Origin: Clostridium sp. DL-VIII
GTDB lineage: Bacteria; Bacillota; Clostridia; Clostridiales; Clostridiaceae
Length of the DNA: 64,000 nucleotides
Direction of reading: 5' to 3'
NCBI RefSeq assembly: GCF_000230835.1
Contig: NZ_CM001240.1
Span: 814,501 to 878,500, forward strand
Shown here: positions 2,768 through 53,996 of the stretch, piece after piece
Position numbering within the stretch: the first letter of the stretch is position 1
How the letters are laid out: the number at the start of each line of letters is the position of its first letter
Translations under genes and position numbers: made by a program
Notes under the pieces: model-generated
The model's database searches: none
What the model was told of the DNA's origin: nothing
The model's input: the letters and a program-made list of their open reading frames with translations, nothing else

Positions 2768-2790
2768 ATTCTTAAGCTAGTTTTAGTATT

Positions 2791-2823
2791 ATTACAGGCA
2801 TATTTAATTAATATGCCTGTAAT
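2791..2823 (+). other. perfect 13-bp hairpin between NRPS-A and NRPS-B
   Basis: ATTACAGGCATAT (2791-2803) and its exact complement (2811-2823) flank a 7-nt loop. No T-run follows, so it is a poor terminator. It lies between two genes that must be co-expressed, and it covers the first possible ATG of NRPS-B (2813). It may stabilise the upstream mRNA end, tune the A/B ratio, or attenuate weakly. Confidence 0.6.
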
Positions 2824-2854
2824 AAATAAATATATAATGGGAGAATGTTGTGAG

Positions 2855-5800: not shown

Positions 5801-8800
5801 TACATATTCATGCTGGATGTTCATCACATAGTAACAGATGGAGTGTCTAATGGAATACTAATGAAGGAATTTGTTGAATTGTATATAGGTGAAAAATTGA
5901 AGGAGCCTCAATTACAATACAAAGATTATTCAGAGTGGCAAAGTGATTTGGAGAAAGAGGGCGTAATAAAAAGACAGGAAGAATATTGGTTAAATAGATT
6001 AAGTGGAGAACTTCCAATATTAAATGTTGTAACGGATTATGAGAGACCAAATGTTCAAAGTTATGAAGGTGATAGAATAGGTTTTTCTATAAATAAAGAC
6101 TTGAAGGAAAAATTGAACAATACAGCAAAAGAAACTGGAACAACACTATACATGATTCTTTTAGCCGCATACAATGTGATGTTATCAAAATACAGTGGAC
6201 AGGAAGATATTATAGTAGGAACAGCACAAGCAGGAAGATCACAGGCAGAACTTGCGGATACTGTAGGGATGTTTGTAAATACAATAGCACTTAGAAATTA
6301 TCCAAGTGGAAACAAAACTTTTAGAGAATTCTTAGAAGAACTAAAAAATAATACTCTAAGAGACTTTGAAAATCTTGATTATCAATTTGATGATTTAGTT
6401 AATAAGCTAAATCTAAAGAGAGATATAAGTAGAAATCCTTTGTTTGATGTAATGTTTGTACTTGAAAACATGAATTCTGGTGTGGATGAAAATGCTATGA
6501 AATTTAAGCCTATTGATATTGAATCAGAGTTAACTATAGCAAAATTTGACTTAACACTAGCTGGAGTAGAAACGGATAATGGGATGAATTTTAGCTTAGA
6601 GTATTGTACTAAGTTATTTAAAAATGAAACTATAGAGAGAATGAAAGAACATTATATTAATATATTAAATTCCATAACCTCTAAGTTAGATAGTAAAATA
6701 TATGAAATGAATATAATGAGTGTAGAGGAAAAGAATAAGTTACTCCATGAGTTTAATAAAATAAGAGCAGAGTACAAAAAGGATAAGACAATACAAGAAT
6801 TATTTGAAGAACAAGTGAAGAAGGCTCCTAATAATATAGCAGTAGTATATGAAGATAAGAAATTGACATATAAAGAGCTAAATGAAAAATCCAATGCTCT
6901 AGCAAGAGTTTTAAGAGAAAAAGGTGTTAAATCAGACACTATAGTTGGAATAATGGTAGATAGATCCTTAGAGATGATGATAGCAATAATGGGAATATTA
7001 AAAGCAGGAGGAGCCTATTTGCCAATAGACCCTGAATATCCTGAAGATAGAATAAAGTATATGCTGGAAGATAGTAAGACAAAAATCCTTCTGACACAAA
7101 ATAAATTACTAGAAAGCATAAAATATGATGTAGAGACTATAGATTTAGAAGATAGTAAATTATATGAAAAGGAAAATAGTAATCTAGATAAAATAATAAA
7201 ATCAAATAATTTAGCATATGTTATATACACTTCAGGTACTACTGGAAAGCCAAAGGGTGTATTGATTGAACATAGAAATGTTATAAGTTTGATAAATGCA
7301 TTGTTTGAGTCTATATATAAAAATTATAAATCAAAGTTAAATGTAGCATTAGTGTCTCCATATGTGTTTGATGCGTCTGTAAAGCAGATATTCCCATGTT
7401 TAGCACTAGGAAATACTCTTTTCATTGTTCCGAAGGATACAAGACTAGATGGTAATTTATTATTAAAGTATTATGACTATAATGGAGTGGATGTTTCTGA
7501 TGGAACACCAATGCATATTAACATGTTAATTAATAGTGCTGAGTTAAATAATGCAAAGTTAAATGTTAAGCAATTTATTATAGGTGGAGATGCATTTTCA
7601 ATTAAAGTTGTTGAAAATTTCTACAATACATTTAATTCTAGCAAGATAGTTCTTACTAATATATATGGGCCAACAGAATGCTGTGTTGATTCTACAGCTT
7701 ATCATATTAATGATATAGAACAGATAAAAAATTCAAAGAGAATACCTATAGGAAAACCTATAATAAATTCTAATATATTTATTGTAGATAAAAATAGAAG
7801 TTTGCTGCCAATAGGGGTTGCGGGAGAACTATGTATTTCTGGAGATGGGCTTTCAAGAGGATATTTAAATAAAGAAGAACTAACAAAAGAAAAGTTTGTA
7901 GATAATCCATTTGAGCCGGGCACTAAAATGTATAGAACAGGAGATTTGGCAAGATGGCTTCCAGATGGAAACATAGAATATCTAGGAAGAATAGATAATC
8001 AAGTAAAAATAAGAGGTTTTAGAATAGAAATTGGAGAAATAGAAAATCAGCTTTCAAAGTTAAAAGAAATAAAGGAAGCGGTAGTTGTAGCTAAGAGCGA
8101 TAATAATGGAGACAAGTATCTTTGCGGCTATATAACAGCAGAACAAGAAGTAGCAATAACATCAATAAAAGAAGAACTTTCAAAAGAATTACCAGCTTAT
8201 ATGATACCTAGTTATATTGTGCAGATAGATAAGTTACCATTAACGACTAATGGTAAGCTTGATAGGAAATCATTGCCGGAAATTGATATTGCACAAGTTT
8301 TAGAAGCTAAATATGAGGCACCAGAAAATGAAATACAAGAAAAGCTAGTAGAAATATGGGAGGAAGTCTTAGATAGAAATCATATAGGTATTAATGATAA
8401 TTATTTCGATTTAGGTGGTCATTCTTTAAAAGCAGTATTAATTGTAGCAAAAATCAAGAGAGAATTTGAGATAGAAATAAAGGTAAGAGAAATATTTGAA
8501 AATTCTAATATAAAAGCTTTAAGTGCAATAATAGAAAAAGCAGATAAAAAAGAATATATTACAATAAAGAAAGCAGAAGAGAAGGACTTTTATAAAGCAT
8601 CTTCAGCAGAAAAGAGAATATTTACATTATGGGAAATGGATAAATCTAATACTGTTTATAATGTTCCAATGATATTAGAAATAAAAGAGAAGCTGAATGA
8701 GAAGAAAGTAGAAATAGTATTAAATGAATTAATAAGAAGACATGAGGCATTAAGAACTAGTTTTGAGGTTATAGATGGAGAAATAGTACAAAGAATTCAT

Positions 8801-11800
8801 AAAGAATGGAAACTAGAGTTTCAATATGAAGAAGCAAATAAAAAAGTAATCAAGGAGAGAATAAAGAAGTTTATTAGACCATTTGATTTAGCGAAAGCAC
8901 CATTAATACGAAGTAAACTAATAAAATGCAAAGATAAGAAATATATATTCATGTTGGATGTCCATCATATAGTAACAGATGGTGTGTCTATGGGTATATT
9001 AATGAAGGAATTTATGGAATTGTATGTAGGTGAGAACCTAAGAGAACCTCAATTGCAATATAAAGATTATTCAGAATGGCAAAATAACTTAGAAGAAAGT
9101 GGAGTAATAAAAAAACAAGAGGAATATTGGTTAAATAGATTAAGTGGAGAATTACCAGTACTCGATATTATAGCAGATTATGAAAGACCTAAAGTACAAA
9201 GCTATGAAGGAAATAGAATAAACTTTACTGTAAATAAAGAGCTTAAAGAAAAGTTAAATAACATAGCAAAAGAAACAGGGACAACATTATATATGGTACT
9301 TTTGGCGGCATATAATGTGATGCTGGCAAGATATAGTGGACAAGAAGATGTTATAGTAGGAACTGTTCAAGCAGGAAGATCACAAGCCGAACTTGCGGAT
9401 ACTGTAGGGATGTTTGTAAATACGGTAGCACTTAGAAATTATCCGGAGAGAAATAAAACTTTTAAAGAGTTCTTAAAAGAATTGAAAGATAATACTTTAA
9501 GAGATTTTGAAAATCTTGATTATCAATTTGATGATTTAGTTAATAAACTAGATTTCAAAAGAGATATAAGTAGAAATCCTCTATTTGATGTGATGTTTGT
9601 AATTGAAAATATGGACTTGGGTATTGAAGAAAATAGTATGAAGGCTAAGGTGGTTGAATCAGAGCTAACTATATCAAAATTCGATTTAATTTTAGCTGGA
9701 GCAGAGGCAGAAGAAGGTATAAATTTCAGTTTAGAATATTGCACTAAATTATTTAAAGAAGAAACAATAGAAAGGATGAAGGAACATTATATCAATATAT
9801 TGACTTATGTAGCAGGCAAATTAGAGAACAGGATATGTGAAATTGATTTAATTAGTCCAGAGGAAAAAGATAAGTTATTAAATGCTTTTAATAGAACAAA
9901 AGCAGAGAATCCAAAGAATAAAACAATAGTAGATCTATTTGAAGAGCAGGTAGAAAAAACACCAGATAATATAGTAGTAGTATATAAAAATAAGAAATTA
10001 ACGTATAAAGAGCTTAATGAGAAATCCAATGCTTTGGCAAGGATTTTAAGAGGAAAAGGTGTAGAAGCAGAAACAATAGTCGGAATAATGGTAGATAGAT
10101 CCCTAGAGATGATAATTGGAATAATGGGAATATTAAAGGCTGGAGGAGCATATTTACCAATAGATCTTGAATATCCAGAAGACAGAATAAAGTACATGTT
10201 AGAAGATAGCGGCACAAGGATTCTTTTAACTCAAAATAAATTATTAGAAAGTATAAGTTACGGTGTGGAAGCTATAGACTTGGAAGATAATAAATTATAT
10301 GAAGTGGAAAATAGTAATTTAGGTACTATAGGAAAATTAAATGATTTAGCATATGTTATATATACTTCTGGAACAACTGGAAAACCTAAAGGTGTAATGG
10401 TGGAACAAAAAGCTCTTGTGAATTTGTGCCTTTGGCATAATGAAAATTATGAAGTAACAGAAATAGACAGGGCAACAAAATATGCTGGTTTTGGTTTTGA
10501 TGCATCGGTTTGGGAGATATTCCCTTATATTATAGCAGGAGCGGCTTTGCATATAATAGATAAGAGTATAATGCTTGATAAAGCTGCATTAAACAAATAT
10601 TATGAGGATAATAAAATAACTATAAGCTTTTTACCTACACAAATGTGTGAGGAATTTATGAATTTAGAAAATAAATCTTTAAGAAAGTTGTTAACTGGAG
10701 CAGATAAATTAAAAGTCTATAAAGAGCAGACTTATGAATTAATAAATAACTATGGTCCAACAGAAAATGCAGTAGTTACAACAAGTTTTAAAGTAGACAA
10801 AAATTATAATAATATCCCAATAGGTAAGCCTATAAGAAATTCTAAAATATACATATTAGGGGTAAATAATAGTTTAATGCCAATAGGGACAGGTGGAGAA
10901 TTATGTGTTTCAGGAGATGGACTTGCAAGGGGATATTTAAACAGAGAAGAACTCACAAAAGAGAAGTTTGTGGCTAATCCATTTGAACCAGGAACAAAGA
11001 TGTATAGGACAGGAGACTTAGCAAGATGGCTTCCAGATGGAAATATAGAGTATCTAGGAAGAATAGATAATCAGGTAAAAATAAGAGGCTTTAGAATAGA
11101 AATAGGAGAAATAGAAAATCAGCTTTTAAAAATTAAAGATATAAAAGAAGCGTTAGTAGTAGCAAATAATGATGAAAATGGAGAGAAGTATCTTTGTGGG
11201 TATGTTACTTCGGAACAAAAAGTGGAGATAGCAGCAATAAAAGAAGAACTTTCAAAAGAAATACCATCATATATGGTACCTAGCTATATGCTACAAATAG
11301 AAAAACTGCCATTAACACCAAATGGAAAGATAGATAGAAAAGCTCTTCCACCGATAGATATAAGTGCGTATAAGAAAGAATATGTTGCACCTAGAAATGA
11401 GCTTGAAAAGACAATAGTAAAAATGTTTAAAGATGTACTTGGGATTAAAAAGATTGGTACTTATGATGAGTTCACATTACTTGGAGGAACTTCTATACTT
11501 GCAATAAGATTAGTTTATGAATTAAATAAAAAAGGAATTAGAATTGATTTAAAAACTATTTTCTCTTGCCAAAGTCCAAGTAAAATAGCAGAGTATATAA
11601 AAGCGCAAAACGATAAAATGGCAGAGGGTGAAAATAGAATTGTAGCTAAGCTAAGAACAAGTGATAGTAAGCTTAAAAGCAATTTAATAATGCTTCCGCC
11701 GGCAGGAGGAACCATTATGGGATATATGGATATGGCTAATAGTGCAAAAGGTATTGGTGACATATATGCCTTAGAAGATCCAAGATTATCAGGTAAAGAA

Positions 11801-12466
11801 GACAATTATTCTAACAATGATGAGAAACTTGTAAAAGAATATGTAAGTGCAGTCAAAAGTGTATTTAGACCAGGAATTGATTATATAGGAGGTCATTCTT
11901 TTGGTGGTAATTTAGCTTTCAAAATCACTTCAGAATTAGAGAAACAAGGAATATCACCTAAGGGATTAGTAATTATTGACTCTCTTCCAGAAAATAATCC
12001 AGATACTAATGCTTATTTTAAAATGAGTGATGAAAAATTAAAGGCAATGGTAGTTGTATCAGTGATGGAAGAACTTTTAGAAATAGAAGAAACAGAATTA
12101 GCAAAAATGAAGACTTTGACCTATGAAGAAGTAAAAGAATATCTTAGAGAAAAAGCTAAGGATGATATGATGCTAAATGCACTTTTAAATGAATCATTTT
12201 TAGATTTATATGTTAAAGTTCATACTGATAACATTAGAATGTACAATGAAGCTGAGTTAGTGGAAGGTGTATTAGCTATACCAATAATAGTTTTTAAAGC
12301 TAGTCAAAGTAAATCTAATTGGGAGAAGTATACTAATTGGACTAAGTACACTAATAAAAATTGTCAGATCATTGAGGTGCCAGGGAAGCATATTTCTATG
12401 CTAAGAAGTCCGAATGTGGAAACAATGATTAATCATTTAGAAAAAATTATTAGTAATATTGATTAA
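2855..12466 (+). CDS. NRPS-B: [C-lobe]-A(Glu)-PCP-C-A(Glu)-PCP-C-A(Leu)-PCP-TE
   Basis: About 3203 residues. I chose ATG 2855 (MSKNENAI) because GGGAG lies at 2839-2843; the earlier ATG 2813 sits inside a hairpin. Residues about 12-249 align only with the C-terminal half of a condensation domain (LNYWNEKL onward) and have no HHxxxDG. Then follow A1 (262-763), PCP1 (LGGHS), C1 (HHIVTDG), A2 (1312-1812), PCP2 (LGGHS), C2 (HHIVTDG), A3 (2359-2839), PCP3 with unusual LGGTS, and a type I thioesterase (2942-3202) with GHSFG and a late GKH histidine. A1 and A2 read D-A-K-D-I-G-I-V-D-K, close to the surfactin Glu code; A3 reads D-A-W-F-L-G-N-V-V-K (Leu). Predicted extension: Glu-Glu-Leu, then release. 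The condensation before A1 is probably done by the C domain ending NRPS-A. Confidence 0.93.
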   Translation: MSKNENAILSMDKFRKELNYWNEKLKNGIEKLDIPIPTKNKNDDYKISNIEISIPKELSNKIIKIGRDADLQIFIVLNSILKALFYKVAGKDNITFMTPVLKNSKVDMFNKAILLNDILDDNMNFKRILTEIKNTISDGYNNSGYPLDKILESNGLNIENIDSVVNVGAIYENIHELKYINKYKFELMFVFVKEDNEIKIKLRYDENKFEKVYIESFLKRYIIIAENLFSDYDMQLKDLSILLNEEKNKLLNEFNKIEADYQKDKTIQEVFQEQVEKAPDNIAVVYEDKKLTYKELNEKSNSLARVLREKGVKADTIVGIMLDRSLEMMISIMGILKAGGAYLPIDPEYPEDRIKYMLEDSETKILLTQKNLLGNINYDGEVIDLEDSKLYEKENGNLDNLSKSNNLAYVIYTSGTTGKPKGVLIEHRNVMSLINALFESIYKNYKVKINVALVAPYVFDASVKQIFPCLALGNALFIVPKDTRLDGNLLLKYYEHNRIDVSDGTPMHINMLINSAELNNVGMNVKRFIIGGDALKVKAVENFYNTFNSNETIITNIYGPTECCVDSTAYHIDRMKVGKLHTIPIGKPINNSKIYILGKNNSLLPVGVAGELCITGNGLSRGYLNKEDLTREKFVDNPYEPGRKMYRTGDLARWLPDGNIEYLGRADNQVKIRGFRIEIGEIENQLSKLKEIKEAVVVAKSDNNGDKYLCGYITAEQEVAITSIKEELSKELPAYMIPNYMLQIDKIPLTTNGKIDKKALPEIDMAQMLETEYEAPGNEIEEKLVEIWEEVLDRKHVGINDNYFDLGGHSLKAVLIISKIKKELKVEIKVRELFENPTIKALGMIIESSEKKEYITINKAEEKEFYKASSAEKRIFTLWQMDKLNTVYNIPIIVEIEEQIDNKRVEKALNELVKRHEALRTSFHVVNGEIVQKIEKEWKLDYKYEEASEKTAKESINNFIKPFDLTKAPLIRSKLVKCEDKKYIFMLDVHHIVTDGVSNGILMKEFVELYIGEKLKEPQLQYKDYSEWQSDLEKEGVIKRQEEYWLNRLSGELPILNVVTDYERPNVQSYEGDRIGFSINKDLKEKLNNTAKETGTTLYMILLAAYNVMLSKYSGQEDIIVGTAQAGRSQAELADTVGMFVNTIALRNYPSGNKTFREFLEELKNNTLRDFENLDYQFDDLVNKLNLKRDISRNPLFDVMFVLENMNSGVDENAMKFKPIDIESELTIAKFDLTLAGVETDNGMNFSLEYCTKLFKNETIERMKEHYINILNSITSKLDSKIYEMNIMSVEEKNKLLHEFNKIRAEYKKDKTIQELFEEQVKKAPNNIAVVYEDKKLTYKELNEKSNALARVLREKGVKSDTIVGIMVDRSLEMMIAIMGILKAGGAYLPIDPEYPEDRIKYMLEDSKTKILLTQNKLLESIKYDVETIDLEDSKLYEKENSNLDKIIKSNNLAYVIYTSGTTGKPKGVLIEHRNVISLINALFESIYKNYKSKLNVALVSPYVFDASVKQIFPCLALGNTLFIVPKDTRLDGNLLLKYYDYNGVDVSDGTPMHINMLINSAELNNAKLNVKQFIIGGDAFSIKVVENFYNTFNSSKIVLTNIYGPTECCVDSTAYHINDIEQIKNSKRIPIGKPIINSNIFIVDKNRSLLPIGVAGELCISGDGLSRGYLNKEELTKEKFVDNPFEPGTKMYRTGDLARWLPDGNIEYLGRIDNQVKIRGFRIEIGEIENQLSKLKEIKEAVVVAKSDNNGDKYLCGYITAEQEVAITSIKEELSKELPAYMIPSYIVQIDKLPLTTNGKLDRKSLPEIDIAQVLEAKYEAPENEIQEKLVEIWEEVLDRNHIGINDNYFDLGGHSLKAVLIVAKIKREFEIEIKVREIFENSNIKALSAIIEKADKKEYITIKKAEEKDFYKASSAEKRIFTLWEMDKSNTVYNVPMILEIKEKLNEKKVEIVLNELIRRHEALRTSFEVIDGEIVQRIHKEWKLEFQYEEANKKVIKERIKKFIRPFDLAKAPLIRSKLIKCKDKKYIFMLDVHHIVTDGVSMGILMKEFMELYVGENLREPQLQYKDYSEWQNNLEESGVIKKQEEYWLNRLSGELPVLDIIADYERPKVQSYEGNRINFTVNKELKEKLNNIAKETGTTLYMVLLAAYNVMLARYSGQEDVIVGTVQAGRSQAELADTVGMFVNTVALRNYPERNKTFKEFLKELKDNTLRDFENLDYQFDDLVNKLDFKRDISRNPLFDVMFVIENMDLGIEENSMKAKVVESELTISKFDLILAGAEAEEGINFSLEYCTKLFKEETIERMKEHYINILTYVAGKLENRICEIDLISPEEKDKLLNAFNRTKAENPKNKTIVDLFEEQVEKTPDNIVVVYKNKKLTYKELNEKSNALARILRGKGVEAETIVGIMVDRSLEMIIGIMGILKAGGAYLPIDLEYPEDRIKYMLEDSGTRILLTQNKLLESISYGVEAIDLEDNKLYEVENSNLGTIGKLNDLAYVIYTSGTTGKPKGVMVEQKALVNLCLWHNENYEVTEIDRATKYAGFGFDASVWEIFPYIIAGAALHIIDKSIMLDKAALNKYYEDNKITISFLPTQMCEEFMNLENKSLRKLLTGADKLKVYKEQTYELINNYGPTENAVVTTSFKVDKNYNNIPIGKPIRNSKIYILGVNNSLMPIGTGGELCVSGDGLARGYLNREELTKEKFVANPFEPGTKMYRTGDLARWLPDGNIEYLGRIDNQVKIRGFRIEIGEIENQLLKIKDIKEALVVANNDENGEKYLCGYVTSEQKVEIAAIKEELSKEIPSYMVPSYMLQIEKLPLTPNGKIDRKALPPIDISAYKKEYVAPRNELEKTIVKMFKDVLGIKKIGTYDEFTLLGGTSILAIRLVYELNKKGIRIDLKTIFSCQSPSKIAEYIKAQNDKMAEGENRIVAKLRTSDSKLKSNLIMLPPAGGTIMGYMDMANSAKGIGDIYALEDPRLSGKEDNYSNNDEKLVKEYVSAVKSVFRPGIDYIGGHSFGGNLAFKITSELEKQGISPKGLVIIDSLPENNPDTNAYFKMSDEKLKAMVVVSVMEELLEIEETELAKMKTLTYEEVKEYLREKAKDDMMLNALLNESFLDLYVKVHTDNIRMYNEAELVEGVLAIPIIVFKASQSKSNWEKYTNWTKYTNKNCQIIEVPGKHISMLRSPNVETMINHLEKIISNID
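4923..5065 (+). repeat. near-identical tract, copy 1 (A1 of NRPS-B)
   Basis: About 140 bases at the end of A1, from the GDKYLCGY region into SKELPAYMIP, match copy 2 at 8067-8209 almost base for base, including synonymous positions. The flanks diverge more. Confidence 0.7.
8067..8209 (+). repeat. near-identical tract, copy 2 (A2 of NRPS-B)
   Basis: Partner of 4923-5065. Identity at synonymous sites over this stretch suggests recent intragenic gene conversion or a recent module duplication. Confidence 0.7.
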
Positions 12467-12500
12467 GTGAAGTGGCTGTAATAATATAAGAAATTTAATA

Positions 12501-12545
12501 AAAGACATAATCATAAGATTTATTATATGATTATGTCTTTTATTT
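12501..12545 (+). terminator. terminator after NRPS-B
   Basis: A 15-bp perfect stem, AAAGACATAATCATA (12501-12515) with its complement (12526-12540), a 10-nt loop and a T-rich 3' side. It closes the NRPS-A/B unit, so NRPS-C needs its own promoter. Confidence 0.85.
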
Positions 12546-12600
12546 ATCTGTAATATTATTTAAGCTAGCAATACAAGTTATATTATATTTCCTGCTTCTA

Positions 12601-12650
12601 AGCTAATTAGCCCAATAACAGAAAGATATCTATTATTGGGCTAATTAGCT
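12601..12650. repeat. 18-bp perfect inverted repeat
   Basis: AGCTAATTAGCCCAATAA (12601-12618) is repeated inverted at 12633-12650 around 14 nt. No T-run follows. The rest of the 12546-13230 gap is A/T-rich with no gene I can support. A second, imperfect inverted repeat lies at about 12698-12768. Confidence 0.6.
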
Positions 12651-13241
12651 ATAGTAATAACTATATTAAAAATATTGAAATCAATATTAAAAAAATGTGA
12701 AACACCTCATTTAATAGTTAAAAATCAAATTGTAATTTTGAATAATTTAATATAAATGAGATGTTTATTAGGAAGAGATTCTACTAAAAATCCAATTACA
12801 AGGTTTTATGAAATGTATAATGTAGAACTAGTATTTACATTACATAAAATTTGTATGGAAATAAAAGTAGTATCAAAAGAAATCATTATTAATAATTAAT
12901 TAAATAATTTCCTTAATAAACTTATAAATATGCAATTGCATTTGTAAGGGGGAAAAATAGTATACATCCTATAAATAAGAGAGATTAAATATAGTATTTT
13001 AATATATTTTTATTTTTTATATGTCTCTTTCCATTGCGGCCTGGATAATGCATATAAATATGTATTTTACTTTATGAGAGTTTTTAAGTCAAAAAAAATT
13101 ATTATCTTTACCAAGTTTAACTTCCCTTATGTGGATAGTACCAATATACATGCAAAAAATAAGAAATTCAATATTTTTATATAAAAGTACATATTTCATA
13201 CATTAAAAGAATTATTAGGCATAATCATTACTTGTAAACGT

Positions 13242-13270
13242 TTGAATGTCAAAAAAGTTCTTTTTATATA
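13242..13270 (+). promoter_or_regulatory. candidate sigma-A promoter for NRPS-C
   Basis: TTGAAT (13242-13247), 17-bp spacer, TATATA (13265-13270). It lies about 150 bases before the NRPS-C start, upstream of three direct repeats. A/T-rich DNA makes chance matches common. Confidence 0.35.
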
Positions 13271-13301
13271 AAAAAATATACATTTAAAGTGGATAACATT
13301 G

Positions 13302-13361
13302 AATTTTGTAAGAAATACGATTAAATTTTGTAATATATAGACGATAAATTAAAATTTTGTA
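13302..13361 (+). promoter_or_regulatory. three direct repeats AATTTTGTA upstream of NRPS-C
   Basis: The 9-mer AATTTTGTA occurs at 13302-13310, 13324-13332 and 13353-13361, with starts 22 and 29 bases apart. ACGAT also recurs before the second and third copies. Same-strand 9-mers about two helical turns apart resemble sites for LytTR-type or other response regulators. Function is inferred. Confidence 0.4.
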
Positions 13362-13419
13362 GATTTTAGGAAGCAGAAAAATTAGTCAATTGATCTTAAA
13401 TTTAAGGGGAGATTATTAT

Positions 13420-16400
13420 ATGAAATATGGATTAACACACGCACAAAGAAGAATATTATATACTGATGATTTATACAAAAATTCATCAATTTCAAACATT
13501 GGAGGTGTATGTTATGTGCCTGGAGACGTGGATTTTAAGGCACTAAAACAGTCAATTGATGAATTTATAGGGAAAAATGAGATTTTTCATTTTAAGTTTA
13601 AAAATGAAAATGGACAAGTATATCAAGAATTAGTTGATTGTAAATGTAATGAAATTGAATTTATTGATTTTGATAAGAATAAAAATAAATTTGATAAGTG
13701 GTGTGAGCAGTTTTTTGATGAGGCTATTTCTGTATATGATAATTATTTATACAAGTTTGTATTATTCAAGTTAGATAATAAAACAAACGGGTATGTTACT
13801 AAAATGCACCATATAGTTTCAGATGGATATTCTTTTGCAATTTTAACAAATCAGATAGCAGAAATCTATGATAATTTATTAAAAATAAGAGAAATAGATA
13901 CAGCTGCAGTTCCATATTCAGAATATATTAAATCAGAAAATGAGTATTTACAATCAGAAAAATTTTTAAAAGATAAGGAATTTTGGAATGAGAGGTTTTC
14001 AAATCTAAATGAAGAATTTTTATATAAAGAAACATATGATTGTAGTGGAGAGAGTTACAAATATAAGATTCCAACTAAAATAACTAATAGATTAAATAAA
14101 TTATTAAATGAAAATAATATAACAAGGAATACATTTTTTATGTCTTTATTATATTTATATTTTTACAAGAAAACAGGGGAAAAGGATATAGTAATAGGAA
14201 TGCCTGTTTATAATAGAGCTAGCAAGAAAATGAGAGCAGCTATAGGTATGTTTGTAAGTACAGTACCGGTAACTTTTAGAATTAATAACGAAATTAATTT
14301 TAAAGATTTTATAAAAGAGCTAAACGTTCAATTAAGAAGCTGCTATAAACATCAAAGTTATCCATATGATATATTGATAAATGATTTGAAATTACCTCAA
14401 AAAGGATTTGATGGATTATTTAAATTTGTATTTAACTATTATAATGAGTCTTTTAGGTATCCTATGAATAATAGTGAGATACAAGTAGAAGAAATAACAT
14501 CTAAACAAGTAACACTTCCTTTAAATTTGATCTTGAGAGAGTTTCTTGAGTCGAGTTTGGAGTTAGAGTTTCAATATAGAGCAAATGAATTTAGCGAAGA
14601 AGAAATTAAAATTATGTGCAATTGCATTAATAATATGCTAGTACAATTAGTAGAGAATTTTGATACAACTATTAGTGATATAGAAATGATAAGTCCTTAC
14701 GAAAAAGAAAAAGTTTTAACTAAGCCTAGTGAGACAAAATGTATAGAAGGTATAAAGCATTATAGTATTAGTGATTTTATTGAAAGAAATAAAAGCATTC
14801 CAAAAGAAGGACACGATATGTCTGGAGCAAAAGTTTATATAGTAGATCCAGATAATAGTTTGCAGCCAATTGGTGTTGAAGGGGAATTGTGCATAGCTAT
14901 ACAAGGAGCAATTGAAGAAACTGTTAATAATTTCGGATTTCCACAAAAAAGTTTTATAGATAATCCATTTGATTCAGTAAATAATAAGTTATATAAAACT
15001 GGAGAATTAGGAAAGCTTACGTCAGATGGAAATGTATATCTTTTAGGAAGAAATGAAAGGCTGGAAAAACAAAAAAGGTATTGGATAAATAGACTGAAGA
15101 ATATACAGAACTTAGAACTTCAAGCAGACTATGTGAGATCTGCTACACAAAACTACGAAGGTAATTCTATTTATGTAAATCTGTCAAAAAGATTAGTGGA
15201 TGGGATTGAGCGAATTTCAAAGGATATGAATACGACTCCATATATGGTAATGATGTCTATATTTAATATTATGCTTTCAAGATATGTCAATCAAGAAGAT
15301 GTTGTAATTGGAACACCAATAATTGAAAGAAATAATCATGATTTAAAAAACATAGAGGGAAGATTAGTAAATACAGTTGTAATATATGATTCAATAAGTT
15401 TTAAAGATAGTTATAATTTATATTTAGATAAATTTAAAGAAGTTTTTATAGAGGCAATGGAAAATTCAAATTATAAATTTGAACAATTAATAAGTGATTT
15501 AGATATAAAAAAAGATCAAAGCAGAAACCCGCTCTTTGATTTCATGTTTGTTTGGAATGAATTAAACTTAGATTCTTTTAACCTTGAAGATGTTAAAGAA
15601 AAAACAGTAGGAATGAAAGAGGAAATTTCAAAGGTTGATTTAACTATGAACATACTCAAAAATAATGACAAGATTAATTTGAGCATAGAATATTCAGGAA
15701 ATTTATTTAAAGAAGCAACAATAAAATTTATGATAAAGCATTATTTAAATATATTAGATCAACTTGTAGAAAATGTAGCTATTTCCATAGAGGATATTAA
15801 ACTAATAGATAAAATAGAAGAAAAAATTTTATTAGAGAATTTCAACAATACAAATTTTTCATATAATAAGGCCGCAACTATAACTAAATTATTTGAAGAA
15901 CAGGCAGAAAAAACACCAAGTAATATAGTTGGAGTATATAAAGATAAGAAATTAACTTATAAGGAGCTAAATGAAAAATCAAATTCTTTAGCAAGAATTT
16001 TAAGAGAAAAAGGTGTAAAAGCAGAAACAATAGTTGGGATAATGGTAGATAGATCGTTAGAAATGCTGATAGGAATAATAGGAATCCTAAAGGCTGGAGG
16101 GGCATACTTACCAATAGATACTGAATATCCAGAAGACAGAATAAAGTATATGTTAGAAGATAGTAATACAAAAATTCTTTTAACACAAAATAAATTGTTA
16201 GGAAGCATAAATTATAATGGAGAAGCTATAGATTTAGAAGATAGTAAGTTATATGAAAGAGAGAATAGTAATGTAAATACTAGAGGAAAGTCAAATGATT
16301 TAGCATATGTTATATATACTTCTGGAACTACTGGAAAACCTAAAGGTGTAATGGTAGAACAAAAAGCCCTTGTAAATTTGTGTATTTGGCATAATGAGTA

Positions 16401-19400
16401 TTATGAAGTAACTGAAAAAGATAATGCAACAAAGTACGCAGGTTTTGGTTTTGATGCATCAGTATGGGAGATATTTCCTTATATTATATCTGGAGCAACT
16501 CTGCACATAATAGATAAGTCTATAATGCTTGATAAAGATGCTTTAAATAAATACTATGAGGATAATAAGATAACAATAGGCTTCTTACCTACACAAATGT
16601 GTGAAGAATTTATGAGTTTAGAAAATAAATCCTTAAGGAAATTGTTAACTGGAGCGGATAAATTAAAGGTTTATAAAAAGCAGACTTATGAATTAATAAA
16701 TAACTATGGTCCAACAGAAAATGCAGTAGTTACAACAAGCTTTAAGGTAGATAAAAATTATAATAACATACCAATAGGAAAACCTATAAATAATTGTAAA
16801 ATATACATATTAGGAACTAGTAATAGTTTAATGCCTGTAGGAGCAGGCGGAGAATTATGCGTTTCAGGATATGGACTTGCAAGAGGATATTTAAACAGAG
16901 GAGAACTCACAAAAGAAAAGTTTGTGGATAATCCATTTGAGCCAGGAACAAAAATGTATAGAACAGGGGATTTAGCAAGATGGCTTTCAGATGGAAATAT
17001 AGAATATCTAGGAAGAATAGATAATCAGGTAAAAATAAGAGGCTTTAGAATAGAAATTGGAGAGATAGAAAATCAACTCCTAAAAATAGAAGATATAAAA
17101 GAAGCTGTTGTAATAGCTAAAAAGGATAGGAATGAAAATGCGTATTTGTGTGCATATATAACAACAGAAAGAGAACTAGATGTATCAAGTATAAAAGAAG
17201 AATTGTCTAAAGAGCTTCCTAATTATATGCTGCCAAAATATATCATGAAGATAGATAAGCTTCCATTGACACCAAACGGTAAAGTTGATAAGAGAGCTCT
17301 ACCAGAAATAGACATGTCTAAGGTAGCACAGACAGAATATAAGGCACCTAAAAGTGAGACAGAAAAGATTTTAGCAGAAGCGTGGAAAGCAGTATTAGAG
17401 ATAGAGAGAATGGGGATTAATGACAATTACTATGAATTGGGTGGAGATTCAATAAAATCAATACAAATAGTATCGAGGCTGCATAGTCATGGTATTAAGC
17501 TCGAAATAAAAGATTTAATGAAGTATCAAACAATAGAAGAGCTAAGTAAACATGTTAAGTATAGTAATGTTAAAGCAGATCAGGGAGTAATTGAAGGAGA
17601 AGTATATCATTCACCAATACAAAAGTGGTTTTTTGACAATAAATTTGCAGTGGAAAATTATTTTAACCAAGCATTTATGTTTGACAAAAATGATGGGATA
17701 GATGAACAAATATTAAAAAAAGCCTTCATAGAGATAATGAAACATCATGATGTATTAAGAATGATATATATAAAGGAAGATAATAAAATTAAGCAAGTAA
17801 ATAGAAATATAGAAAACATAGAAAATATGTTCACGTTAAATGTATATAATTTAGAAAATGCAGAAGATTATAAAACAGAAATAGAAGATTTAACAAACAA
17901 AATGCAGGAAGGCATGGATTTAGAAAATGGAATTTTAGTGAAACTTGGTTTATTCAAAACAAGTGAGGGAGACCACTTACTCATAGCAATACATCATATG
18001 ATTATTGATGGTATATCATGGAGAATATTACTTGAAGACTTAGAAAAAGCTTATGGAAGTGTAGAAAGTGGAAAAGCAGTAGTGTTACCAGAAAAGACTA
18101 CGTCTTATAAAGTTTGGGTAGAAAAGCTTAATGAATATGCTAATAGTAAAGAAATGCTTAGAGAAAAAGAATATTGGAATAATGTAACTAACATAGAGAT
18201 TAAAGAGCTTCCAAGGGACTTCAAAAAGTGTGAAAGTACTGTAGGAGATAGTAAAAATATCATTATAAATTTATCAAAAGATGAAACCGAAAGGCTCCTT
18301 AGAGGGACAAGTACAGCGTATAATACAGAAATAAATGATATACTTCTTTGTTCATTAGGATTAACTATTAAAGAATGGTCCAAAAACGAAAAAATTCTTA
18401 TAGGGCTTGAAGGTCATGGAAGAGAAGAAATAATAGAGGATGTTTCGATAAATAGAACATTAGGGTGGTTTACATCTACATATCCAGTGATTTTAGATAT
18501 GAAAAATAGTGATGATATTGGATACTCAATAAAAAATACAAAAGAAACTCTAAGGCATATACCAAATAAAGGTGTTGGATATGGAATCTTGAAATATCTA
18601 ACTGATCCTGAGAATAAAAAGGATGTTTGTTTTGAGTTAAATCCTGAAATAGGATTTAACTATTTAGGGGAATTTAGTGAAAGTAATGCTGAAAGCTTAT
18701 TTAAGTATTCTAAGATATCAAGTGGAAAGACTATATCAGAAGAAAATAAAAAATTAAACAATATTGAGATAAATGGTTTTGTAGTGAATGGAGAACTAAA
18801 ATTCATATTTAATTATAGTATTAAAGAATATAAAGCTGAAACAATAGAGAAGCTAACAAAGTTATATACAAAAAATCTGCTTGAAATTATAAAACACTGC
18901 GAAAGTATAAGGGAAACAGAAAGAACACCATGGGATTATGGAGATAGAGAATTAAGTGTAGAGGATTTAGATAAAATACTATCATACAAAAAAGAAATAG
19001 AGAAAATACACTCTTTAACCCCAATGCAGGAAGGCATAATGTATAATTCAAGGATCAATAGAGAGTCTAATGCGTATTTTGAACAAAGTATATTTACAGT
19101 AACAGGGCCATTAGATATAGAAATATTGAATAAGGCATTTAATAAACTTATAGAAAGATATGAAATACTAAGAACAGCATTTTTCTATGAAAATATAAGT
19201 GAGCCTAAACAAGTAGTTTTAAGAAATAGAGAATTAAAGATATGCTATGAAGATATAAGTAATCTGGAAGAAAATAAAGAAGAATATTTGGAAAGATTTA
19301 AAAAGAAGGATAAAGACAAAGGATTCGACTTAACTAATGATTGCTTAAATAGATTATCGGTAATAAAAATCGATAGCGATATATATAAGATAGTATATAG

Positions 19401-22400
19401 TTTCCATCATATAATTATGGATGGGTGGTGCCTAGGCATAATAATAAACGACATAATAAATATGTATAAATTAATATCTAAAAACGAAGAAATAGTGTTT
19501 GATGAAACAGAACCTTATAGTAAGTATTTAGAGTGGCTAGATAAGCAAGATAAGGCATCAGAATTAAGCTATTGGAATAATTATCTTTCTTCATATGAGC
19601 AAGAGATTAATATACCTAAGCTTGAAAATTTAGCTGAGGAATTTGTAAATGAAGAAGAAGAAATTATAATTAGCGAAGATTTAACTTATAAATTAAAGAG
19701 TATGGCAGAAAAAGGATCTATAACTCTAAATTCTGTTATCCAAACAGCTTGGGGGGTATTGTTACAGAAGTATAACAATACAAATGATGTAGTATTTGGT
19801 TCTGTTGTTTCTGGAAGACCAAGTGAAATTAATGGCATAGAAAATATAGTCGGATTATTTATAAATACAGTTCCTATTAGGGTAAAAGGGGAAGATACTA
19901 CAGAATTCATAGAGCTTGCAAGAAAAATAAATGAGGATTTTATTGAGGCAAATTCGCATAGTTATTGCTCTTTGGCAGAAATACAGGCTTTAACAAGTAT
20001 GAAAAATAACCTTATTAATCATATTGTAGCCTATGAGAATTATCCTATTGATAGAGAAATGTTAAATTCTGGTATAAGTAGTGAATCGGGGATTAAAATA
20101 ATAAATAACGTTGAAATGTTTGAACAAATAAATTATGATTTTGCCCTTATAATAATTCCAGGTAGTAGCATGACTTTGAAAATAAAATATAATGGTAGTA
20201 TTTATAACAAAGAAATAATAAGGCAGATAATAAAGAATCTATGTAATGAATTAAAATCTGTAGTTAATAATCCAAACATTTTAATACGAGATATAGATAT
20301 ATTAAATGAAGAAGAAAAAAATAAATTATTAAATGACTTCAATAAAACAAAAATGAAATATCCGAAAAATAAAACAATAGTTGATTTATTTGAAGAACAA
20401 GTTAAGAAAACACCAAGTAATATAGCAGTGGTATGTGGAAACAACAAGTTGACATATAAAGAGCTTAATGAAAAATCCAATGCTTTAGCAATGGTTTTAA
20501 GAGGAAAAGGTGTAGAAGCAGAGACAATAGTCGGGATAATGATAGATAAATCATTAGAGATGCTGATTGGAATAATGGGAGTCTTAAAAGCAGGGGGAGC
20601 ATATTTACCCATAGATCCTGAGTATCCAGAAGACAGAATAAGGTATATGTTAGAAGACAGTAATACAAAAATACTTTTAACACAAAACAAATTATTAGAA
20701 AGTATAAGTTGTGCTGGAGAAACTATAGATTTAGAAGATAATAAATTATATGAAGGAGAAAATAGTAACTTAAATAATAGAGGAAAGTCAAGTGATTTAG
20801 CATATGTTATATATACTTCAGGAACAACTGGAAAACCTAAAGGAGTAATGGTGGAACAAAAAGCTCTTGTGAATTTGTGTTTCTGGCATAATGAGTATTA
20901 CGAAGTAACAGAAAAAGACAGGGCAACAAAATATGCCGGCTTTGGTTTTGATGCATCAGTTTGGGAAATATTCCCTTATATTATAGCTGGAGCAGCATTG
21001 TATATGATAGATAAGTCTATAATGCTCGATAAAGATGCATTAAACAAATATTATGAGGATAATAAAATAACAATAGGCTTTTTACCTACACAAATGTGTG
21101 AGGAATTTATGAATTTAAAGAATAAATCCTTAAGAAAACTATTAACTGGAGCAGATAAGTTAAAGATTTATAAAAATCAGACTTATGAATTAATAAATAA
21201 TTATGGACCAACAGAAAATGCTGTAGTTACAACAAGTTTTAAAGTAGATAAAAATTATAGAAATATACCAATAGGAAAGCCAATAAGTAATTCTAAAATA
21301 TACATATTAGGAGATAATAATACATTAATGCCAATAGGAACATGTGGAGAATTATGCGTTTCAGGAGATGGGCTTGCAAGAGGATACTTAAATAGAGAAG
21401 AGCTAACAAGAGAAAAGTTTGTAGATAATCCATTTGAACCAGGAACTAAAATTTACAGAACAGGAGATTTAGCAAGGTGGCTTCCAGATGGAAACATAGA
21501 ATATCTAGGAAGAATAGATAGTCAGGTAAAAATAAGAGGTTTCAGAATTGAAATTGGAGAAATAGAAAATCAGCTTTTAAAAATTGACGGAGTAAAAGAA
21601 GCGGTAGTGTTAGCTAAAGATAATGAGAATTTAGATAAGTATCTTTGTGGATACCTAACAGTGCAGCAGGAAGTAACAGTTACATCAATCAAAGCAGAAC
21701 TTTCAAAAGAATTACCATCATATATGATACCAAGCCATATAATTAAAATAAATAAACTTCCAATAACGCCAAATGGAAAGGTAGATAAAAAATTTCTTGA
21801 AGAAATAGCTGTTACGCAAATACCAGAGAGTGAATATGAGGCGCCAAGGAATGAGATAGAAAAAAATCTAGCAGCTATATGGGAAGATGTATTAGGAATT
21901 AAGAGGATAGGAATAAATGATAATTTTTATGATCTTGGGGGGCATTCATTAAAGGGAACTATATTAAAGAGTAAAATAAAAGAAAGATTAAAAATAGACA
22001 TACCACTTAATATAATATTTACAAAACTTACTATAAGAGAGCTAAGTGAATATATTGAGAAGGGTGAATATACTCCAGAAGATTATGTTATTTTTAACGA
22101 GCATGCTAACAAAACTATTATATGTTTTCCCCCATATATGGCATATGGTTTCTTGTATAGTGGAATTGCTAAAAGAATTAAAGATTATAAAATGTATAGT
22201 TATAATTTCATCCATAGTGATAATCTAATTGAAGATTATGTTAAAAGAATTACAAGCATAAATAGTGATAAAAAATTCGTGTTTTTCGGATGGTCTGCTG
22301 GAGGGCGATTAGCAGTTGAGATTGCGGATAAAATGAATAAAATGGGATATGATGTAACAGATATAATATTAATGGATACTATGCCTTTAAACTTCAACAA

Positions 22401-22815
22401 ACAAACTGCTGATGAAAGCAATAAGCATAAGATATCTAAAGAAAGAGAAGCACAATTTGCAGCTGAAAATATGGAAGAAGTATTAAAGTTCATATCTCAA
22501 AATATGCCAGAGTATCTGGAATTTATAAAAAATGATAGTGAAGCACAGGAGAAAATGACAAGATATTTAGAATATTATAATTCATCTAGTGATGTTAAGA
22601 GTGTTTCTTCAAGATTACACTTGATTTTGATACCAGATGAATGTAGAGAGATGGGAGATATTGATAATAATACAATCTATAATGCGTGGAAACAAATTAA
22701 TGAGGACTTGATTACGTATAAAGGATCTGGAAAACATGAAGATATGATTAAAGAGAATAATATTGATTATAACTCCAGTGTCATATTTAATATACTAGAG
22801 AAAATAGAATTCTAG
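13420..22815 (+). CDS. NRPS-C: Cs-[A fragment]-[C-lobe]-A(Leu)-PCP-E-C-A(Leu)-PCP-TE
   Basis: About 3131 residues. ATG 13420 is chosen because AAGGGGAG lies at 13404-13411; the TTG at 13390 has no such site. Residues 1-424 form a complete condensation domain (HHIVSDG) whose start (LTHAQRRILYTDD, SSISN) resembles the acyl-loading C domain of surfactin synthetase SrfAA. Residues about 467-548 are an A-domain fragment (from GAKVYIVD to YLLGRN). Residues 549-801 are a C-lobe without HHxxxDG. Then come A1 (821-1304), PCP (LGGDS), an epimerisation domain (HHMIIDGISW, EGHGRE, FNYLGEF), a condensation domain (HHIIMDG, DCL position), A2 (2324-2801), PCP (LGGHS) and a thioesterase (GWSAG). Both full A domains carry D-A-W-F-L-G-N-V-V-K (Leu). 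Predicted product: N-acyl-D-Leu-L-Leu, free or cyclised. Confidence 0.93.
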   Translation: MKYGLTHAQRRILYTDDLYKNSSISNIGGVCYVPGDVDFKALKQSIDEFIGKNEIFHFKFKNENGQVYQELVDCKCNEIEFIDFDKNKNKFDKWCEQFFDEAISVYDNYLYKFVLFKLDNKTNGYVTKMHHIVSDGYSFAILTNQIAEIYDNLLKIREIDTAAVPYSEYIKSENEYLQSEKFLKDKEFWNERFSNLNEEFLYKETYDCSGESYKYKIPTKITNRLNKLLNENNITRNTFFMSLLYLYFYKKTGEKDIVIGMPVYNRASKKMRAAIGMFVSTVPVTFRINNEINFKDFIKELNVQLRSCYKHQSYPYDILINDLKLPQKGFDGLFKFVFNYYNESFRYPMNNSEIQVEEITSKQVTLPLNLILREFLESSLELEFQYRANEFSEEEIKIMCNCINNMLVQLVENFDTTISDIEMISPYEKEKVLTKPSETKCIEGIKHYSISDFIERNKSIPKEGHDMSGAKVYIVDPDNSLQPIGVEGELCIAIQGAIEETVNNFGFPQKSFIDNPFDSVNNKLYKTGELGKLTSDGNVYLLGRNERLEKQKRYWINRLKNIQNLELQADYVRSATQNYEGNSIYVNLSKRLVDGIERISKDMNTTPYMVMMSIFNIMLSRYVNQEDVVIGTPIIERNNHDLKNIEGRLVNTVVIYDSISFKDSYNLYLDKFKEVFIEAMENSNYKFEQLISDLDIKKDQSRNPLFDFMFVWNELNLDSFNLEDVKEKTVGMKEEISKVDLTMNILKNNDKINLSIEYSGNLFKEATIKFMIKHYLNILDQLVENVAISIEDIKLIDKIEEKILLENFNNTNFSYNKAATITKLFEEQAEKTPSNIVGVYKDKKLTYKELNEKSNSLARILREKGVKAETIVGIMVDRSLEMLIGIIGILKAGGAYLPIDTEYPEDRIKYMLEDSNTKILLTQNKLLGSINYNGEAIDLEDSKLYERENSNVNTRGKSNDLAYVIYTSGTTGKPKGVMVEQKALVNLCIWHNEYYEVTEKDNATKYAGFGFDASVWEIFPYIISGATLHIIDKSIMLDKDALNKYYEDNKITIGFLPTQMCEEFMSLENKSLRKLLTGADKLKVYKKQTYELINNYGPTENAVVTTSFKVDKNYNNIPIGKPINNCKIYILGTSNSLMPVGAGGELCVSGYGLARGYLNRGELTKEKFVDNPFEPGTKMYRTGDLARWLSDGNIEYLGRIDNQVKIRGFRIEIGEIENQLLKIEDIKEAVVIAKKDRNENAYLCAYITTERELDVSSIKEELSKELPNYMLPKYIMKIDKLPLTPNGKVDKRALPEIDMSKVAQTEYKAPKSETEKILAEAWKAVLEIERMGINDNYYELGGDSIKSIQIVSRLHSHGIKLEIKDLMKYQTIEELSKHVKYSNVKADQGVIEGEVYHSPIQKWFFDNKFAVENYFNQAFMFDKNDGIDEQILKKAFIEIMKHHDVLRMIYIKEDNKIKQVNRNIENIENMFTLNVYNLENAEDYKTEIEDLTNKMQEGMDLENGILVKLGLFKTSEGDHLLIAIHHMIIDGISWRILLEDLEKAYGSVESGKAVVLPEKTTSYKVWVEKLNEYANSKEMLREKEYWNNVTNIEIKELPRDFKKCESTVGDSKNIIINLSKDETERLLRGTSTAYNTEINDILLCSLGLTIKEWSKNEKILIGLEGHGREEIIEDVSINRTLGWFTSTYPVILDMKNSDDIGYSIKNTKETLRHIPNKGVGYGILKYLTDPENKKDVCFELNPEIGFNYLGEFSESNAESLFKYSKISSGKTISEENKKLNNIEINGFVVNGELKFIFNYSIKEYKAETIEKLTKLYTKNLLEIIKHCESIRETERTPWDYGDRELSVEDLDKILSYKKEIEKIHSLTPMQEGIMYNSRINRESNAYFEQSIFTVTGPLDIEILNKAFNKLIERYEILRTAFFYENISEPKQVVLRNRELKICYEDISNLEENKEEYLERFKKKDKDKGFDLTNDCLNRLSVIKIDSDIYKIVYSFHHIIMDGWCLGIIINDIINMYKLISKNEEIVFDETEPYSKYLEWLDKQDKASELSYWNNYLSSYEQEINIPKLENLAEEFVNEEEEIIISEDLTYKLKSMAEKGSITLNSVIQTAWGVLLQKYNNTNDVVFGSVVSGRPSEINGIENIVGLFINTVPIRVKGEDTTEFIELARKINEDFIEANSHSYCSLAEIQALTSMKNNLINHIVAYENYPIDREMLNSGISSESGIKIINNVEMFEQINYDFALIIIPGSSMTLKIKYNGSIYNKEIIRQIIKNLCNELKSVVNNPNILIRDIDILNEEEKNKLLNDFNKTKMKYPKNKTIVDLFEEQVKKTPSNIAVVCGNNKLTYKELNEKSNALAMVLRGKGVEAETIVGIMIDKSLEMLIGIMGVLKAGGAYLPIDPEYPEDRIRYMLEDSNTKILLTQNKLLESISCAGETIDLEDNKLYEGENSNLNNRGKSSDLAYVIYTSGTTGKPKGVMVEQKALVNLCFWHNEYYEVTEKDRATKYAGFGFDASVWEIFPYIIAGAALYMIDKSIMLDKDALNKYYEDNKITIGFLPTQMCEEFMNLKNKSLRKLLTGADKLKIYKNQTYELINNYGPTENAVVTTSFKVDKNYRNIPIGKPISNSKIYILGDNNTLMPIGTCGELCVSGDGLARGYLNREELTREKFVDNPFEPGTKIYRTGDLARWLPDGNIEYLGRIDSQVKIRGFRIEIGEIENQLLKIDGVKEAVVLAKDNENLDKYLCGYLTVQQEVTVTSIKAELSKELPSYMIPSHIIKINKLPITPNGKVDKKFLEEIAVTQIPESEYEAPRNEIEKNLAAIWEDVLGIKRIGINDNFYDLGGHSLKGTILKSKIKERLKIDIPLNIIFTKLTIRELSEYIEKGEYTPEDYVIFNEHANKTIICFPPYMAYGFLYSGIAKRIKDYKMYSYNFIHSDNLIEDYVKRITSINSDKKFVFFGWSAGGRLAVEIADKMNKMGYDVTDIILMDTMPLNFNKQTADESNKHKISKEREAQFAAENMEEVLKFISQNMPEYLEFIKNDSEAQEKMTRYLEYYNSSSDVKSVSSRLHLILIPDECREMGDIDNNTIYNAWKQINEDLITYKGSGKHEDMIKENNIDYNSSVIFNILEKIEF

Positions 22816-22824
22816 AGGTTTATA

Positions 22825-22960
22825 ATGGAAACTTATAATGTGAAAATTTCAGATATTGATTAAAGAACCTTAAATAACTTAAGCTTATTGATTGATTCAG
22901 GAAAAAGAAATAAGATTAAAAAAATTATCAGTAAGATAGATCAAAAAGGCTTAATTTAAA
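22825..22960 (+). pseudogene. remnant of an Sfp-type phosphopantetheinyl transferase
   Basis: Ten bases after the NRPS-C stop, ATG 22825 opens METYNVKISDID, then a stop. Read through, the frame continues RTLNNLSLLIDSGKRNKIKK and ISKIDQKGLI, then stops again. The pattern K-R-x-K-I-K-K ... K-x-D resembles the first about 45 residues of Sfp-family enzymes (KREKCRRF..KEDAHRTLLG in Sfp), whose genes often follow an NRPS. Nothing of the catalytic part is visible before the terminator at 23015. Identification rests on a short match by eye. Confidence 0.5.
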
Positions 22961-23014
22961 TGTTTGGTTTTCATGTAAGTCTATTACCAATAGGATAATA
23001 AAAAGCAGATTAAG

Positions 23015-23064
23015 GGAGCATCGCAAAATGATTAAGTTTTAATCAGGAGCGATACTCCTTTTTT
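23015..23064 (+). terminator. terminator after NRPS-C and the sfp-like remnant
   Basis: GGAGCATCGC (23015-23024) pairs with GCGATACTCC (23049-23058) with one mismatch. A nested 7-bp stem TGATTAA/TTAATCA lies inside and a T-run follows. Confidence 0.8.
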
Positions 23065-23206
23065 ATATAAAACAATAAATTTTTAAATCTCTAAAATGTA
23101 GCATCTTTAACACTATTTTTTCAGTGTGTTAAAAATTGAATAAAGGTTTTTTTAATTGATTAAAAATGGAGAATTGAGGATATAATTTGAAAAGGAGGAA
23201 ATATAT

Positions 23207-23512
23207 ATGATAAATAAATTGAAATATATAAAAATATTAAGAAATGTTTGTGATTACTATGGAATTAATGAAGAAAAATTCATAGAATTATTAAAAGATA
23301 GAGATAATAAATATATTTTACTATTAGTTTTAAAAAATAATCACTGTCTGGAAATTGATAAGATTAAAGAAGTTTTTAATTTGAAAACATCTAGAAGCAT
23401 AAATAATAATCTAAAATTGGCAGAAGAAAAATTACTGGCTAATAGATATTTTAGAGAAAGGTATTTTGAATTAGAAAACACTATAGAAAAAAGCGAAATG
23501 ACTAATTTATAA
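23207..23512 (+). CDS. small DnaA-domain-IV-like protein
   Basis: 101 residues with AAAGGAGG at 23191-23198, 8 bases before the ATG. I do not recognise a named gene. The layout (VCDYYGINEEKF, then a variable helix, then DKIKEVFNLKTSRSINNNLK and AEEKL) resembles the helix order of the C-terminal DNA-binding domain of DnaA, where the second block corresponds to the helix-turn-helix. The signature residues that contact the DnaA box are not preserved, so origin binding cannot be assumed. It stands alone before pyrG. Alternative: an unrelated small helical protein. Confidence 0.7.
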   Translation: MINKLKYIKILRNVCDYYGINEEKFIELLKDRDNKYILLLVLKNNHCLEIDKIKEVFNLKTSRSINNNLKLAEEKLLANRYFRERYFELENTIEKSEMTNL

Positions 23513-23643
23513 AAAAAGACTAGATATTGATCGTAAGATGTGATATGATATTACCTATGTTATTAAGCAACACAAATAACCCATAATGTATTTTATGGGG
23601 TAATTTACATTATAGCATTAAGTATTAAAAAAGTCAACATTAA

Positions 23644-25293
<1,650 letters not shown>

Positions 25294-53911: not shown

Positions 53912-53996
53912 GGAGGAATTCCCGAGTGGCCAAAGGGGGCAGACTGTAAATCTGTTACGTTTCGTTTCGATGGTTCGAATCCATCTTCCTCCACCA
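53912..53996 (+). tRNA. tRNA-Tyr (GTA), copy 1
   Basis: 85 nt including encoded CCA. Acceptor GGAGGAA pairs with TTCCTCC; anticodon GTA in ACTGTAAATCT; long variable arm (type II) as expected for bacterial tRNA-Tyr; T-loop GGTTCGAATCC. Confidence 0.95.

Follow-up and report, generated by a model that had tools for sequence, protein, structure and literature searches.

The NRPS-C gene and its domain layout

The window analyzed here, a stretch of 64,000 nucleotides, comes from Clostridium sp. DL-VIII, whose genome is a single contig of 6,477,357 bases and whose relatives here lie in Clostridium. Three NRPS genes are found in a row: NRPS-A (starting before the window and ending at 2767), NRPS-B (2813-12466), and NRPS-C (13420-22812, plus strand). 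NRPS-C is an uninterrupted frame of 3131 aa with GGGGAG directly 5' of its ATG; the list of open reading frames begins it at 13390, with a TTG start. A tblastn search with 204 NRPS proteins revealed no NRPS traces in the intergenic regions 12467-13419 and 22816-23652. NRPS-A and NRPS-B share a frame and are separated by one stop (2765-2767) and 15 further stop-free codons (window 2700-2900). Their codes (window 155-12466 and upstream) are DAFWLGGTF (Val-like), DGFFLGVVY, Leu, DAKDIGIVD twice, and Leu, and the pair looks like an acyl-hexapeptide line; the database proteins P0022 and P0198 match NRPS-A/B at 98% and 97% identity. The window also contains a raiA RNA (60147-60352), a SAM riboswitch (54518-54617), and four tRNAs (53912-54345).

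Domains were assigned with profiles derived from the 204 NRPS proteins (200 database proteins, NRPS-A, -B, and -C, and the form in genome G023), a set picked by similarity to NRPS-C that includes near-identical relatives and partial proteins and is no unbiased census. The order in NRPS-C is C1 / A fragment / C2 C-lobe / A-AC-T / E / C-A-AC-T / TE, the TE being assigned with Pfam:

13420..14721, plus strand: C1 (residues 1-434), complete C domain, starter type from its position, HHIVSDG at residue 130
14722..14787, plus strand: linker between C1 and A1 plus the stub left of the A1 start (residues 435-456), collinear with P0005 435-456
14788..15048, plus strand: A1 fragment (residues 457-543, junctions placed to ~4 residues), probable piece of a lost A domain
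15049..15834, plus strand: C2 C-lobe (residues 544-805), without the N-lobe that bears HHxxxDG
15835..15891, plus strand: C2-A2 linker (residues 806-824), 0/19 differences between the window and P0001
15892..17283, plus strand: A2 including the C-terminal subdomain, Leu code DAWFLGNVV
17371..17547, plus strand: PCP (T) of the first complete module, by profile
17629..18903, plus strand: E domain with HHMIIDG, a C-family domain immediately followed by another C and named E from this position
19009..20331, plus strand: C3, by profile
20389..21780, plus strand: A3 including the C-terminal subdomain, Leu code DAWFLGNVV
21868..22047, plus strand: PCP (T) of the last module, by profile
22114..22752, plus strand: thioesterase, by Pfam, GWSAG at residue 2957

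The C1 profile match spans residues 3-433, and all 11 of its best matches among 955 C domains, its own match included, are the first C domains of their proteins. Between C1 and the complete A2 (profile match at residues 825-1158), the profiles recognized only two pieces: an A piece at residues 425-496, covering positions 277-349 of the 355 in the A profile, and a C piece at residues 544-805, covering positions 172-435 of the 435 in the C profile. A sequence-only reading had described such an A piece and C-lobe between C1 and the first complete A domain, at 14820-15830 and in an open frame; the pieces, their order, and the frame were as described, and the coordinates, placed here at 14788-15834, were right. 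It had also listed the end of A, the PCP, and the C N-lobe with its HHxxxDG as missing, which they are, and the first ~290 residues of the A domain are gone as well. What remains of the A1 start is SISDFIER (residues ~448-456), and the A1 fragment corresponds to the A6/A7 region of the lost domain.

A motif scan located HHxxxDG at residues 130, 1525, and 1996, PCP motifs at 1340 and 2839, and the A3 motif at 966 and 2465, and none of these three motifs within residues 435-824, between C1 and A2. A complete but divergent A-PCP-C unit is excluded by this absence of core motifs. An A domain interrupted by an insert is also excluded: of the fragmentary A, profile positions 277-349 are all that is left, and A2 forms a complete domain without it.

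Full, scarred, and clean states in relatives

We then looked for relatives among ~5.8 billion proteins (7986 candidates scored) and found three close ones in the matches listed, which were the best 120 of 3023. P0001, 96% identical to NRPS-C, has the same scar and differs by 130 substitutions and zero gaps over 3131 aa. P0005 (3653 aa) contains a complete C1-A1-T1-C2-A2 in its N-terminal part, according to the profiles, and NRPS-C aligns with it in three collinear blocks (71%, 63%, and 70% identity) with ~290 and ~370 residues absent between them. The first block pairs residues 1-456 of both proteins (71.5% identity), beyond which P0005 continues with a complete A1 where NRPS-C has the stub only. 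The second pairs NRPS-C ~457-543 with P0005 ~749-838 (63-64%), and the third pairs 553-844 with 1220-1511 (70%, or 66% when lengthened to 546-900); from the start of A2 onward, the two proteins diverge. P0005 ~457-749, inside A1, and P0005 ~839-1211, which runs from the A1 subdomain up to the boundary of the C2 lobe, have no counterpart in NRPS-C, and both gaps are in frame. The A1 fragment is 64% identical to the P0005 A1 (115 bits; the next match by score has 45% and 76 bits) and the C2 lobe is 73% identical to P0005 1212-1471. Both pieces are thus orthologous, in the same order, to consecutive domains of one P0005 module. An assembly or sequencing artefact is ruled out, since P0001 has the identical layout with 130 substitutions and the pieces match consecutive domains of one relative; a chance origin of the layout is rejected on the same two grounds. 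Farther downstream (residues 2099-3445), P0005 has a C-family domain along with an A domain that an insert divides in two; since PF00881 is among its Pfam matches, P0005 is perhaps a thiazole-type line.

The sequence-only reading had suggested looking for a relative with the full extra module, and two were found among the matches listed: P0005 and, from a second search with the P0005 C1 as the query (best 120 of 1310 matches listed), P0231. The first 1478 residues of P0231 (2993 aa) align to P0005 1-1477 with 50% identity and show the same C-A-T-C start.

In P0071 (Clostridium saccharoperbutylacetonicum, 2759 aa) and the G023 form (2765 aa), whose C1 domains are near-identical, C1 stands directly before A2 and the module is cleanly absent. 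The scarred and clean lines have the part from A2 to TE in common (72% identity). The tail of the P0071 C1 corresponds to C1 up to the last helix and to C2 thereafter (a chimera gives 94 matches, against 75 with C1 and 59 with C2 by itself); it is best read as what recombination between two C tails would leave, and its comparison gave no recognizable trace of the scar in the clean form.

Among 68 Clostridium genomes, a C1-to-A2 match at E <= 1e-90 was found in two, the window's own and G023. A search of 206 family genomes for the fragment plus lobe gave matches at E <= 1e-45 in 21, with at most 10 candidates scored per genome; the window's own aside, no match listed combined the fragment (query residues ~3-89) with the lobe, all beginning at query position 68 or later. 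A plasmid search (16 records, 0/16 covering 80% of the query) and a scan of genome contigs (3 loci, 28-30% identity) returned distant NRPS only.

The order of these states was evaluated on a C1 tree with P0231, the NRPS-A C1, P0022, P0114, and P0033 as outgroups. Since P0231 branches first and P0005 next, the full state, with A1-T1-C2 present, is most likely ancestral. The last fork, which unites the scarred and clean lines, has support of 95/96 with the whole domain and 98/99 with the domain cut before the P0071 break. The tree tool gave a long-branch warning for P0114, P0033, and P0231; the same fork had 82/70 in an earlier tree from which P0231 was absent. Insertion of a module into an originally clean line is disfavored with P0231 as the outgroup.

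We propose that the stretch between C1 and A2 is very probably the remnant of an ancestral A1-T1-C2 unit, the peptide having become one residue shorter and the A fragment a linker. Compared with P0005, two stretches are deleted in frame, one holding the A1 core and the other the A1 subdomain, T1, and the C2 N-lobe. The loss of an A-PCP-C segment down to a scar, as the sequence-only reading had put it, is thus borne out by the full relatives and the rooted tree, but a single clean excision is not, as there are two in-frame gaps relative to P0005; one complex event behind both gaps is possible. As to the clean form, its line may have shared one deletion with the scarred line in their common ancestor and lost the remainder later, or the two lines may have lost the module independently. 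The absence of the same module from both, their common A2-to-TE part, and their sister position fit a shared first step, whereas the clean form has no recognized scar trace; we weight the two orders equally.

Fates of the A1 fragment and the C2 lobe

We then compared the conservation of the two pieces. Of 20 A positions whose conservation reaches 90% or more across 751 A domains, the A1 fragment retains 11, against 18 in the P0005 A1 and a lowest value of 12 among the 751. It has changed far more on the window line than on the P0005 line (15:2 with P0231 as the outgroup, p=0.0023; 16:3, p=0.004, when a consensus served as the outgroup). When the window is set against P0001, the A fragment differs at 10/109 positions, against 107/2760 outside the scar (p=0.012), and the whole scar differs from the rest at p=0.051 (23/371); these differences by themselves are weak evidence of decay because the last T segment differs at nearly the same rate (8/93). 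Judged from the conserved positions and line counts together, the A1 fragment is decaying.

The C2 lobe retains 21/25 conserved C positions (P0005, 20/25) and differs from P0001 at 13/262 (p=0.41). Its changes on the window and P0005 lines number 22:16 without P0231 (p=0.42) and 26:13 with P0231 as the outgroup (p=0.053), and 26:16 for the P0001 line (p=0.16); in the lobe tree, the stem of the scar lobe is 0.33, against 0.10. For the control C1, the counts are 22:26 and 31:27. Acceleration of the lobe thus appears mild at most. Unlike the A fragment, the lobe shows no clear decay, so it may be a retained part and not debris.

A first structure model (mean pLDDT, 39.5) was set aside. In a second (mean pLDDT, 63.9), residues 440-543 scored below 50, a low score that means little as no other alignment row covers the fragment, and residues 540-809 reached at least 70 in 21 of 27 ten-residue blocks. 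Foldseek matched the predicted lobe to solved C domains, with an rmsd of 3.3 over 256 columns for TycC5-6 and of 8-12.5 for other top matches; the best matches are C-A proteins, several of them in that higher rmsd range. In an alignment, the lobe-A2 stretch is collinear with SrfA-C, LgrA, and other C-A proteins of solved structure.

The scar lobe is a C-lobe only, begins at the lobe boundary, and stands directly before an A domain, as do truncated N-terminal C* domains, and it is internal (residues 544-805), unlike C*, which is the first domain of a subunit. The 204 proteins include 50 N-terminally cut first C domains, 43 of which start at profile positions 160-181, the range in which the scar lobe starts (172). 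For a randomly placed breakpoint in the ~630 residues spanning the A1 subdomain through the C2 end, we put the chance of hitting these 22 positions at roughly 3-4%, which is suggestive only. NRPS-B opens with a C-lobe-only domain (window 2861-3607, profile positions 165-435) that has 4/25 conserved C positions, and NRPS-A, which precedes it, has a complete terminal C with HHIVSDG; a complete C followed by a C-lobe and an A is therefore seen twice in the window, in trans (NRPS-A/NRPS-B) and in cis (NRPS-C).

The common start position, together with the lobe at the start of NRPS-B, is what would be expected if a gene whose end lay partway through the A domain after C1 had been joined to a gene starting with a C-lobe-only domain, the lobe never having been a full C here. 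The affinities of the pieces point elsewhere. After P0001, the nearest relative of the scar lobe is the complete C2 of P0005 (390 bits), followed at 195 bits by other complete C domains; N-terminal lobes reach at most 130 bits, and two P0189 lobe matches reach 156 and 118. By sequence, the scar lobe does not group with the N-terminal lobes, which keep a mean of 10.7/25 conserved positions (n=43) against 21 for the scar, and the A fragment matches the A1 that precedes that very C2 in P0005. On this sequence affinity, we reject a fusion with a C-lobe-starting subunit and regard the scenario as very improbable.

Internal truncated C or A pieces numbered 12 in the survey of the 204 proteins, four of them belonging to the window NRPS-C and P0001 and five being weakly matching last domains. 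In P0189 (residues 1828-2567), one chain carries C pieces (profile positions 2-186 and 171-432), next an extra C-lobe (173-435), and then an A; this extra lobe has no A piece before it, and a weak A piece lies near the P0189 start. The internal piece of P0149 represents, at least in part, a duplicated A or an interrupted one.

Predicted function and relation to known systems

Because its motifs are missing, the remnant unit would have lost the ability to select, carry, or condense an amino acid. C1 would then attach the acyl chain straight to the Leu held by the next carrier, E would epimerize this first Leu, C3 would add a second Leu, and TE would be expected to release an N-acyl-D-Leu-Leu. 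The product would be one residue shorter than the ancestral chain, that residue being Val going by P0005, whose A1 code (DAFWIGGTF) reads Val and exactly matches the code of the second, Val-activating A domain in gramicidin S synthase 2 (P0029). The A2 and A3 codes of NRPS-C are both DAWFLGNVV, which is given as Leu for ThdA_A1 (PMC7253712).

We infer that the line still works and is under selection, going by its intact motifs, the lack of stops or gaps relative to P0001, and purifying selection relative to the clean form. The 130 substitutions between the window and P0001 include no stops, against 7-11 expected without constraint, a comparison biased by P0001 having been found as a long intact protein. 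Across six segments, NRPS-C and the G023 form show pN of 0.10-0.14 and pS of 0.44-0.53, values that mostly reflect the time before their split. If NRPS-C were instead a dying pseudogene with the scar as one of its signs, one would expect what the two remnants show, the absence of catalytic motifs and a decaying A fragment, and in-frame deletions in another NRPS gene have been interpreted as inactivating (PMC13324335). The motifs of the remaining domains are intact, however, and the stop counts and pN/pS values, with the limits just given, also argue against it, so that we consider a pseudogene very unlikely.

In a functional line, the A1 fragment would now be a decaying linker. The C2 lobe may still be a platform on which A2 sits, as N-terminal C-lobe-only domains may be; we put the chances of this at about even. 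The idea comes from the alignment of the lobe-A2 stretch with solved C-A proteins, the C-like predicted lobe, and McyB/McyC, in which, according to a review (PMC11546977), a C-lobe alone, when co-expressed, narrows the substrate range of the neighboring microcystin A domain. In both cases a C-lobe would affect the adjacent A domain, but the McyB/McyC proteins are laboratory constructs and NRPS-C carries a natural scar. The thermoactinoamide synthetase ThdA has a truncated N-terminal C* that is called probably inactive and suggested to influence A selectivity (PMC7253712). Like the scar lobe, it is a truncated C before an A domain; it is the first domain of its subunit, whereas the scar lobe is internal and stems from a full C2.

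Remnant A domains within NRPS have been taken as evidence of a lost module before: in complestatin synthetase, a corrupt A domain after X* was read as an additional ancestral module (Rausch et al. 2007, PMC1894796). That remnant follows X* and has insertions and deletions, whereas NRPS-C has a fragment and a C-lobe between intact domains, together with full and clean relatives. Whole modules have also been lost in Pseudomonas lipopeptide synthetases, by excision (PMC9948697), and in nostopeptolide clusters, by A-T-C deletions (PMC12184294), the latter unit being the one absent from the clean P0071. Leftover in-chain pieces, as found in NRPS-C, are not described in the excerpts of these two papers considered here. 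Among titles and abstract openings on module loss, remnants, truncated C domains, and Clostridium products, with few subscription journals covered, we found no publication naming NRPS-C. Both module loss and A remnants have been published before; the addition here is a rooted series of full, scarred, and clean states with uneven decay.

More tentatively, and rather doubtfully, the scar may be a C-lobe-only domain at birth, the lobe being retained as a platform for A and the dead A fragment becoming a linker; with the same layout seen in trans at the NRPS-A/NRPS-B joint, the widespread N-terminal C-lobes may be relics of such losses. If true, the C-lobe boundary could serve as a natural cut point for shortening assembly lines. 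Because a single natural module loss can be seen in its full, scarred, and clean forms among relatives, with the ancestral state rooted, the tolerance of a shortened NRPS can be tested. Does C1 act across a remnant of ~370 residues, does A2 need the C-lobe, and is the clean form more efficient? Engineered module deletions meet identical questions.
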